From contig NZ_CP085988.1 in the NCBI RefSeq assembly GCF_020736365.1, positions 2,858,001 through 2,922,000 of the forward strand: DNA of 64,000 nt, given 5' to 3'. The translations under genes and the position numbers were made by a program. Positions 20,907-35,366 of the stretch are shown here, one piece after another (the first letter of the stretch is position 1; every line of letters starts with the position of its first letter). This DNA comes from Clostridium sp. M62/1. GTDB lineage: Bacteria > Bacillota > Clostridia > Lachnospirales > Lachnospiraceae. The notes below the pieces were generated by a model. It searched no databases. It was not told the origin of the DNA and worked only from the letters and a program-made list of their open reading frames with translations.

Positions 20907-20971
20907 ATAAGAAAGAATCCTGCTTTGCAGGATTCTCCGCCTGCGGCGGGTCGCGAAAGCGACATTTTCCT
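20907..20971 (+). repeat. Left half of a structured repeat split by the IS110 element
   Basis: Three hairpins in a row: GAATCCTGC-TTT-GCAGGATTC, CCGCC-TGC-GGCGG and TCGC-GAAA-GCGA. The segment matches the left half of the uninterrupted copy at 46667-46732 (differences are few). It ends in CATTTTCCT, the CT core at 20970-20971 being the recombination point. Confidence 0.85.
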
Positions 20972-20996
20972 CGTATTATATAGTAGTAGTGTTTAT

Positions 20997-21175
20997 AGAC
21001 CCTCTCCAAGGTCTGTATGCTATACTGTTTGGAGATACTGTGGATTGGTTTCATTTTCCTACCACTTGATGGTTACGGAAAGGCTCCAACCACAGTCTCT
21101 TTGTATCGTTGTTAATCAGTTAGATACCGCATGACGGTTGATTTAGAACGAGGTTACAAGCGCAGAGAGCTCTGT
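20997..21175 (+). ncRNA. Predicted IS110 bridge RNA with target and donor loops
   Basis: Three modules in the order known for IS621 bridge RNA. 5' stem-loop: TCTCCAA (21003-21009) with TTGGAGA (21029-21035). Target loop: outer stem TGTGG+TTGG (21039-21048, one bulged A) with CCAA+CCACA (21086-21094), inner hairpin ACCA-CTTGA-TGGT (21061-21073); left internal strand holds CATTTTCCT (21052-21060), identical to the left target flank, right strand holds CGGAAAGG (21076-21083), reverse complement of the right flank. Donor loop: outer stem TTGTA/TACAA (21101-21105, 21155-21159), inner hairpin ACCG-CATGA-CGGT (21126-21138), with AGTTAG and ACGAG matching the element ends. Exact RNA ends are estimates. 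Confidence 0.8.
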
Positions 21176-21217
21176 GGTCCTAAACAGTATCTAAATCTAT
21201 TACTAAGGAGTGTTCTT

Positions 21218-22393
21218 ATGATCTACGTTGGAATTGATGTCGCTAAGGATAAGCATGACTGCTTTATCACCAATTCAGATGGCAAAGTCCTTTTTCCGGT
21301 TTTTACCATTCAGAATAACCGGGATGGATTTGATGTTCTTTTTTCCAGGATTCAATCCTCTTCTTCAGATGTGTCCAATATAAAAGTAGGACTGGAGGCC
21401 ACTGGACACTACTCTTACAACCTGCTCGGTTATCTTATTGACAAAGGTCTCCACACCTTCGTTATCAATCCGCTCCACACAAATCTTTACAGAAAAAGTC
21501 TCAGCCTTAGAAAGACGAAAACAGATAAGGTTGATGCCCGAACCATTGCTTTGATGCTCATGTCTGACGTGAACCTGAAGTCCTACTCAGATACATCATA
21601 CCATAACGAGGAGTTAAAGTCACTCACCCGTTATCGTTTTCGTAAGGTTCAGGAACGCGCTCAGCTTAGACAGTCTGTTTCCAGGCTTGTTACCATTCTC
21701 TTTCCAGAATTGGAAAAACTTGTTCCTTCGCTTCATATCGCTTCTATCTACGCCCTTCTTTCCGAGTTTCCTTCTGCCGGAACGATTGCCTCCTGCCATT
21801 TGACACACCTGACGAAGCGGTTGGAAAACGCTTCAAAAGGCCGTTACAGCCGGGAGAAAGCGATTGAAATACGGAATGCTGCCAGAGCCTCCATCGGTTC
21901 CAACATGCCTGCCAAATCTCTGGAATTAAAGCACACACTCCGGCTAATTGGTGAACTGGATTCCGAAATCTCAGAAATTGAATCCGAAATCAAACGGATC
22001 ATGGATGAAATCCATTCTCCCATCCTGACCATTCCAGGAATAGGCTACCGCATGGGCGCCATGATCCTGGCAGAGATTGGAGATTTCTCCCGCTTTGATT
22101 CGCCGGATAAGATCCTGGCATATGCCGGAGCTTCTCCATCTACCTATCAATCCGGGCAGATGGAATCCTCTTATTCCCACATGGAGAAACGGGGATCGCG
22201 CTATTTACGTTTTGCTCTGATCAATGCCACCAAATACGTCTGCCAATGGGATGAAACTTTCGGTGCATACCTTCAGAAGAAGATTTCTGAAGGGAAACAC
22301 TACAACGTCGCCATCACCCACGCCGCAAAGAAACTTGTACGGTTAATTTACGCAATGGAAAAATCCGGCAAACCTTACATAAAAACGGCATAA
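21218..22393 (+). CDS. IS110-family recombinase
   Basis: 391 residues. N-terminal RuvC-like DEDD domain: Asp7 in GIDVAKDKHD, Glu60 in GLEATGHY, Asp103 and Asp106 in KTDKVDAR. C-terminal transposase-20 domain with IPGIGYRMGAMILAEIGD and the serine-containing YAGASPSTYQSG, followed by SHMEKRGSRYLRFALI. Start at 21218 chosen for CTAAGGAGTG just upstream; the longer in-frame start at 21131 would lie inside the bridge RNA donor loop. The frame is intact with all catalytic residues, so the element may be active. Confidence 0.95.
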   Translation: MIYVGIDVAKDKHDCFITNSDGKVLFPVFTIQNNRDGFDVLFSRIQSSSSDVSNIKVGLEATGHYSYNLLGYLIDKGLHTFVINPLHTNLYRKSLSLRKTKTDKVDARTIALMLMSDVNLKSYSDTSYHNEELKSLTRYRFRKVQERAQLRQSVSRLVTILFPELEKLVPSLHIASIYALLSEFPSAGTIASCHLTHLTKRLENASKGRYSREKAIEIRNAARASIGSNMPAKSLELKHTLRLIGELDSEISEIESEIKRIMDEIHSPILTIPGIGYRMGAMILAEIGDFSRFDSPDKILAYAGASPSTYQSGQMESSYSHMEKRGSRYLRFALINATKYVCQWDETFGAYLQKKISEGKHYNVAITHAAKKLVRLIYAMEKSGKPYIKTA

Positions 22394-22541
22394 CTTTTTC
22401 TGCCCTATAACACTCTTTTAGAGCACCGATATCCGATGCTCTGTTTGTCGTGCGATTTTCAAGGTACAACGATCTATGAAATGCGTTCCCGCAATTCATT
22501 CAAAAGTCTTCATTTTAGACTTGACTTTTAATAGTTAGTCT

Positions 22542-22606
22542 TTCCGCCGCAGTGCGATCTCCGCGGAGCGTTTTTATTTAACAGGGAACGAAGTTTCCTG
22601 TTAAAT
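22542..22606 (+). repeat. Right half of the structured repeat split by the IS110 element
   Basis: Begins TTCCGCCGCAGTGCG and ends in the palindrome TTTAACAGG(G)AAC-GAA-GTTTCCTGTTAAA; matches 46733-46800 of the intact copy. From 22607 to 22729 only the divergent intergenic sequence remains, with no gene visible. Confidence 0.85.
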
Positions 22607-22729
22607 AAAAAAAGGTCCCCTGACAGGGCCAGAATGGCCTGCAGGGAAACCGATATTCATTCCCGTTATTCCGCTTTTATATTTTATACCGCCGCTGCGC
22701 TTTTCCCCTGCGGCCGGGCTTTCCCGTTT

Positions 22730-35116: not shown

Positions 35117-35132
35117 ATATCTGAATTGAATA

Positions 35133-35300
35133 TGGCGAGGTGCCTGCGTTTTCATTCCGCAGGAGAATAGAGAAGTGAGGTGAAAATCCTCCACGGTCAC
35201 GCCGCTGTAAAAGAAGAGTTGTCCCCAAAACGTGTCACTGGGCTCTGCCTGGGAAGGCCGGGGGCAATGAGGACGCTTGAGTCAGAAGACCTGCCCGCCA
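35133..35300 (+). promoter_or_regulatory. Cobalamin riboswitch
   Basis: Conserved elements in order: AGGTGCC, GAAGTGAGGTGAAAATCCTCC, CACGGTCACGCCGCTGTAA (B12-box core GCCACTG-like as GTCACTGG), GGGAAGGC, GACGCTTGAGTCAGAAGACCTGCC. This is the adenosylcobalamin-class aptamer layout. A terminator follows at 35367-35406, so repression by transcription termination when B12 is plentiful is expected. Downstream genes encode cobalt uptake, the usual regulon. Confidence 0.95.
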
Positions 35301-35366
35301 TAGGAAATCGGCAAAGCTTACTGCGAAGGACAGAGGCTCTGTCAGACGGCCTTTACCCAGCCGTCG

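Follow-up and report, generated by a model that had tools for sequence, protein, structure and literature searches.

An insertion sequence located in the analysed window (the whole 64,000-nt stretch of DNA; Table 1) can, judged from its sequence, almost certainly be regarded as an intact-looking, recently active member of the IS110 group that uses a bridge RNA. This assignment is based on the ends of the element, its guides and their co-variation with target and donor, a promoter motif at the joined ends and conserved recombinase residues. The features of IS110 bridge-RNA systems that were tested here were all recovered at the sequence level. Since the guides, the donor guides, the junction promoter, the catalytic residues and a covariance-model match fit, the element is placed within a known system: it exemplifies the recently discovered bridge-RNA system clearly and represents neither a new kind of system nor a new principle.

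Table 1. Features of the element and its host flanks, numbered by position in the window
Feature	Position	Strand	Remarks
IS110-group element without cores	20972..22539	+	1568 bp; 8 identical copies, differing flanks
Left target CATTTTC + CT core (host flank)	20963..20971	+	direct reading; identical 9 bp in 5/8 copies, 1-2 differences in 3/8
CT core + right target TTCCG (host flank)	22540..22546	+	right CT 22540-22541, TTCCG 22542-22546
-10 box TATTAT of the predicted promoter created by end joining in the circle	20974..20979	+	
-35 box TTGACT in the right end	22521..22526	+	
5' stem-loop of the bridge RNA	20994..21017	+	in minimum-energy and centroid folds
Long-range helix, 5' side, GATACTGT	21034..21041	+	pairs with 21184-21191
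Target-binding loop (stem, guides, apical hairpin)	21038..21095	+	
Left target guide (LTG) CATTTTCCT, 9 nt including core	21052..21060	+	exceeds shuffles in concordance only from -1 to -7
Right target guide (RTG) CGGAAAG, 7 nt including core	21076..21082	+	exceeds shuffles in concordance only from +1 to +5
Donor-binding loop	21097..21169	+	basal stem 21097-21103 with 21163-21169
Left donor guide (LDG) AGTTAG	21118..21123	+	equals right-end donor bases -7 to -2
Right donor guide (RDG) ACGAG	21148..21152	+	pairs with CTCGT at the left end; 70/71 concordant
Long-range helix, 3' side, ACAGTATC	21184..21191	+	13 nt before the ribosome-binding site
Likely ribosome-binding site AAGGAG	21205..21210	+	direct reading
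Recombinase gene, 391 aa	21218..22393	+	PF01548 E 2.5e-40, PF02371 E 5.8e-22; IS621 in PDB E 1.5e-22

The element, its copies and its landing sites

The element consists of the bridge-RNA left end, the recombinase gene and a short right end, and a CT core can be read from the sequence at each of its ends. The host genome contains eight copies, which are identical across 1569 bp (20972-22540) and located at different sites. CT is present at both ends in all eight of them as well as in all 64 distinct insertions considered below. The exact 20-base target was found uninterrupted (0 mismatches) at two places in the genome. These carry a single CT and represent scarless empty sites, in line with recombination at a short core as in the IS110 group.

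Guides and flanks were compared at 12 positions beside the CT, of which 9, 12, 11, 11, 11, 12, 11 and 9 match in copies L001 to L008, respectively. At least 9 of 12 matches occurred at 43 of 18,444 background CT sites, which were drawn from the window, the flanks of the copies and loci L012-L028, so that unoccupied copies of the target repeat are over-represented in this background. The initial annotation had equated the left guide with the 9 bp ending at the left junction and had expected the flanks of other insertions to match CATTTTC/CT/TTCCG; both hold, the eight copies matching at 9-12 of 12 positions, above background.

The sequence matched by the guide belongs to an intergenic repeat of ~125 bp that is dispersed in the genome and that houses, judged from their flanks, five of the eight copies (L002, L003, L004, L006 and L007); the right side of L002 soon diverges from it. 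This repeat, the main landing site of the element, contains several inverted repeats and is found in the window at ~20912-20971 and 22540-22612. At least 48 matches to L012:1436-1560 were detected on contig 1 of the genome (40 of 78 candidates scored). Among the matches listed, almost every one below 2.12 Mb has minus orientation and almost every one above 2.33 Mb has plus orientation, the exceptions being those at 1463767 and 2729787 and four 41-45-bp matches to the palindromic tail; the pattern looks as if the repeat were oriented with respect to replication.

A search of seven further genomes of the genus did not detect the element; a single 66% match, to its right portion, turned up in one of them, and the RNA covariance model described below matched none of the seven. 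Therefore, the burst of eight copies looks recent. No near match to the element was found among the PLSDB plasmids.

Decayed remnants of related elements were observed on contig 1 at 2779580-2779792 (L009, L129), 2781540-2781706 (L011) and 2007419-2007635 (L010). Read by eye, the left guide of L009 (ATCCCTC) differs from that of the element and agrees with the left flank of L009 (ATCTCTC) in 6 of 7 positions. In a genome-wide search with the covariance model (150 of 739 candidates scored), the matches were the eight copies plus the decayed left end of L009/L129 (97 bits). This locus was considered as a free-standing bridge RNA and rejected: the 3' part of its donor loop is degraded, as judged by eye, and a recombinase remnant of merely 62 residues follows ~2 kb on, so that no working solo RNA was found among the candidates scored.

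The best 80 of at least 523 confirmed stretches from a genome scan were taken as relatives; their recombinases are 73-92% identical, and their titles mostly name Lachnospiraceae or other clostridia and in two cases Bacteroides or Bacteroidaceae, which makes a clostridial host likely for the window element. Their left and right ends were aligned, followed by the parsing of guides and flanks.

Recombinase

IS621 and ISCro4 (PDB 9t56; E 9.1e-21) are the sole sequence relatives of the recombinase in the PDB at E <= 0.001, and it is in the recombinase sequence that the likeness to ISCro4 lies. With its 391 aa, the protein exceeds the 328-residue IS621 chain. The catalytic residues D7, E60, D103, D106 and S312 align with identical residues of this chain, which are taken as D11, E60, D102, D105 and S241 under an inferred 2-residue offset between the PDB chain and the numbering of the paper. 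The D, E, D, D and serine signature of the IS110 group is thus present. A recombinase with 70% identity is encoded in the phage record PP479939.1 (Faecalibacterium phage Roos, 22435-23607), where it is annotated as a hypothetical protein.

Target-binding loop and fold of the bridge RNA

The left non-coding end (246 nt, 20972-21217) is longer than the right one (146 nt, 22394-22539) and holds the guide RNA, as is characteristic of the IS110 group. Within the target-binding loop, CTGTGG-A-TTGG (21038-21048) pairs with CCAACCACAG (21086-21095), and the hairpin ACCA-CTTGA-TGGT (21061-21073) forms the apex. The LTG is identical to the left flank at 20963-20971, and CGGAAAG(G) (21076-21083) is the reverse complement of CCTTTCCG, the flanks joined at CT, so that both guides of the loop match the insertion site. 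Stem, apical hairpin and both guides were found in the sequence where the initial annotation had placed them, including the complementarity of the right guide to the right side of the reconstructed target with its CT.

The stability proposed for this loop is borne out by its fold (-23.2 kcal/mol, z -3.65, none of 200 shuffles as good), but in the best fold the guides are paired to one another (UUUUCC to GGAAAG). Because the LTG and RTG are partly complementary in the window element, the predicted minimum-energy fold closes the loop; holding the guides open yields -17.3 instead of -22.8 kcal/mol, a cost of ~5.5 kcal/mol. According to this prediction, the LTG-RTG pairing might conceal the guides.

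Counts of structure, for the loop helices and for the long-range helix taken alone, were made on 34 of the 81 left ends. In these, the helices of target and donor loops are paired in 98.1% of cells and include eight doubly changed pairs, compared with at most 48.7% of cells for slid versions. A covariance model of the bridge RNA, built from 22 relatives with the window excluded, recognizes 21033-21187 (E = 1.7e-42) as its sole match in the window up to E 10.

An additional long-range helix

A further helix connects the foot of the target loop with the region ahead of the ribosome-binding site. In 80 elements (L030 excluded), 631 of 640 cells of this helix are paired, and the pair 21037-21188 occurs as AU in 45, GU in 10 and GC in 25 of them and is never broken. 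Tested alone on the 34 sequences, the helix was not reached by any of 500 shuffles in any of five measures. The RNAalifold consensus of the same sequences favours it over the lower target-loop stem. In the minimum-energy fold of the window sequence alone, 21184-21190 pairs with another upstream copy of the motif and the target-loop stem is kept. From the sequences, the helix may close a three-way junction or act as one side of a switch. For IS621 RNA, the target loop is given as 34-98 and the donor loop as 110-177, and the available text of that report describes no such long-range helix (PMC11208158).

The leader could fold in two ways, either into a bridge-RNA form that contains the target-loop stem or into an alternative form that combines the long-range helix with a second helix (21090-21095/21172-21177), and thereby control bridge RNA maturation or recombinase translation. 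The conservation of the first helix and its behaviour against shuffles favour this reading, which nevertheless appears unlikely: nearly all compensatory change falls in the outer four pairs, which are compatible with the target-loop stem, whereas the inner four, which overlap this stem, barely vary and are uninformative. In addition, the second helix lacks any doubly changed pair, its pair 21094-21173 is disrupted in 23 of 79 elements, and the counts are inflated by relatedness. Such a two-fold leader would supplement the bridge-RNA explanation rather than replace it. A slightly more doubtful proposal is that the long-range helix, by competing with the base of the target loop and ending just ahead of the recombinase ribosome-binding site, would let one transcript toggle between guide-RNA and messenger forms and so balance the supply of guide and recombinase.

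Donor-binding loop and predicted junction promoter

The donor loop and the junction promoter, which had been left undecoded by the initial annotation, are both present. Counts for the donor refer to 71 of the 81 elements. The LDG comprises 6 nt only, without the core, and either AGTTAG or AGTTAA is common to the LDG and the right end; the variant AGTTAA in the guide is accompanied by AGTTAA in the right end in five of six elements. At the core-adjacent base, LDG and donor differ in 62 of 71 cases. The RDG tracks the left end over four states (CGT, TGT, ACT and GCT) in 70 of 71 elements, and the lone exception would form a G-T pair. An AU dinucleotide, opposite the donor bases AT, is located at a fixed distance upstream of the RDG in 70 of 71. 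The donor loop thus carries left and right guides that match the ends of the element.

The base following the RDG is Watson-Crick complementary to target base -1 in 68 of 71 elements. This pairing is consistent with the handshake of IS621 (PMC11208158), and shared ancestry may be partly responsible for it. In the target loop, the handshake position was counted in 70 of these 71 elements; opposite the donor it forms G-T in 54 and a Watson-Crick pair in 12 and is unpaired in 4. Together with the LDG difference next to the core, this counts against the bridge-RNA assignment. In three relatives (L088, L090 and L093), the left end begins with ACT or GCT and not with CGT, the donor guide is changed to fit, and the right guide spells CGTAT.

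Joining of right end, CT and left end gives TTGACT-17 bp-TATTAT in the window element. In 66 of 71 elements, a spacing of 17 bp separates TTGAC from TATTAT or a near variant of it; the spacing is 20 bp in four, and the motif is absent in one. The motif of a predicted promoter across the circle junction is thus present.

Concordance of guides and flanks among relatives

Guides could be parsed in 77 of the 81 elements (window and relatives), of which 65 had enough flank, representing 64 distinct insertions; L030, L050, L098 and L101, whose guides were not parsed, and 12 elements short of flank were left out. Prior to counting, the guide strings of L048 were rewritten by hand and guides ending in CTA were cut by one base. 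The 64 insertions with both flanks contain 42 different left guides and 31 different right guides.

Agreement between the LTG and the flank of its own insertion amounts to 5.39 of 7 positions (3.48 after shuffling, SD 0.14) and that of the RTG to 4.17 of 5 (2.35 after shuffling, SD 0.11), and none of 5000 shuffles reached either value (n = 64). The relatives are not independent, which is controlled by slid frames and not by the shuffles: in frames displaced by 1-4 bases, agreement was at most 3.30 for the LTG and 2.42 for the RTG (n = 64). All 7 left positions match in 17 of the 64 insertions and all 5 right positions in 30. Poor fits on one side, found in a minority and counting against the assignment, comprise 14 insertions with fewer than 5 of 7 on the left and two with fewer than 3 of 5 on the right; L071 has 0 of 5 right matches. 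Position by position, concordance exceeds the shuffles at -1 to -7 (at -7, 3 of 2000 shuffles reach it) and at +1 to +5, and beyond these boundaries shuffles were as good in 147 (-8), 535 (-9) and 799 (+6) of 2000 cases. Consequently, with the core counted in, the left side of the code spans 9 nt and the right side 7 nt.

It could be argued that the match of guide and flank is a coincidence or a short direct repeat from an earlier event, with the leader being merely a structured 5' UTR of the recombinase gene, ahead of which it does sit. The target (TTTTCCTTTCC) is indeed of low complexity, so that matches in a single copy can be due to chance. This reading is nonetheless very improbable, given that 9, 11 and 9 of 12 positions agree in the three copies outside the repeat (L001, L005 and L008), that the differing guides of the relatives match their own flanks, and that the donor guides also co-vary with the element ends. 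A chance match of a T-rich loop is ruled out by the matches of the copies and by a concordance in 64 insertions that has clear boundaries.

Comparison with known systems and proposed mechanism

In the available text of the IS621 reports (PMC11208160, PMC11208158), the following properties are shared with the window element: a left-end bridge RNA ordered as 5' stem-loop, target loop and donor loop, a 9-nt left target guide, a CT core, a sigma-70-type junction promoter, a recombinase with DEDD and serine, and insertion into a dispersed repeat, as for IS110 elements and REP (PMC11208160). The IS621-like arrangement of LTG and RTG that had been proposed from the sequence is supported by the eight genome copies and the guide-target covariation; only the length of the RTG departs from it, with 7 nt compared to 4 nt in IS621, where target pairing is described as 9 nt left and 4 nt right (PMC11208158). 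Across orthologues, the available text gives a range of 4-7 nt for this guide (PMC11208160). The right donor guide reads AU, a 4-nt gap, A and then ACGAG, compared with 2+4 nt in IS621, and the split of AU and RDG in this branch recalls the split pairing described there (PMC11208158). The additional conserved helix near the ribosome-binding site and the different target also distinguish the window element from IS621.

The seekRNA of ISEc21, likewise of IS110 type, is described in the available text as derived from the non-coding region upstream of the gene, matching both target strands and having an order opposite to that of IS1111, all of which is shared with the window element; a 58-nt RNA sufficed for ISEc21 (PMC11187229). 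An element of the IS1111 type, which has the same type of recombinase, is highly improbable, as its arrangement with the guide RNA in the right end was not found, and the RNA model match, which precedes the gene within the left end and has the bottom-strand-pairing guide first, corresponds to the IS110 arrangement as far as the source texts go (PMC11208160, PMC11187229).

By analogy with the available descriptions of IS621 (PMC11208160, PMC11208158), the element would excise as a circle, in which the joined ends (right end, CT, left end) would form a sigma-70-type promoter that would transcribe the left end into bridge RNA. The recombinase would bind this RNA, whose target loop would pair with CATTTTC-CT on the bottom strand and CT-TTCCG on the top strand and whose donor loop would pair with AGTTAG and CTCGT at the circle junction. 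Recombination at CT would then insert the circle, the predicted target sequence being CATTTTCCTTTCCG.

Bridge recombinases are candidates for programmable DNA insertion. The branch described here supplies an element that is compact and multi-copy and whose target code of 9+7 nt has a longer right side than that of IS621, and a decoded donor code with four natural variants, together with dozens of naturally reprogrammed relatives. It therefore allows direct study of guide length, of handshake positions and of the tolerance of mismatches. According to the available text, published work already covers natural variation or reprogramming of such guides, including for the seekRNA system (PMC11208160, PMC11187229). 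A literature search retrieved no naming of the element or its branch, which is weak evidence since its coverage was partial and supplements were outside it. The result is thus a confirmation and an extension, and its interest lies in the well-decoded branch and the unexplained helix.

Variation of the left end

Among the 80 relatives (the best of at least 523 confirmed stretches), 18 exhibit a left end of 287-297 nt (L041, L044, L046-L049, L060, L062, L067-L070, L079, L081, L082, L087, L091 and L092). Those of the long left ends that were read by eye carry two different 5' hairpins in tandem, and the other relatives carry one or the other; the 5' module of the left end thus seems to be exchangeable. 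In L050, a relative otherwise intact-looking, the right half of the target-binding loop is apparently deleted.

In two relatives from different hosts, L097 (~2176-2263) and L107 (~2165-2254), the first 87-89 bp of the left end are doubled in tandem. The two units meet precisely at the left target guide's CT, and the opposite end has a right target that matches the guide. The duplication could have arisen by self-insertion into the guide locus or by slippage, the left target and the left guide being similar. Since slippage accounts for it equally well, self-insertion is not claimed. A search of 397 genomes of the family with the duplication pattern, in its short left-end form only and with the element copies across these genomes uncounted, gave matches in nine, none with the element within the letters shown.

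The element has no family match in Rfam at the gathering threshold. The only two Rfam matches in the window are a cobalamin riboswitch at 35120-35312 on the plus strand and a TPP riboswitch at 1240-1346 on the minus strand.
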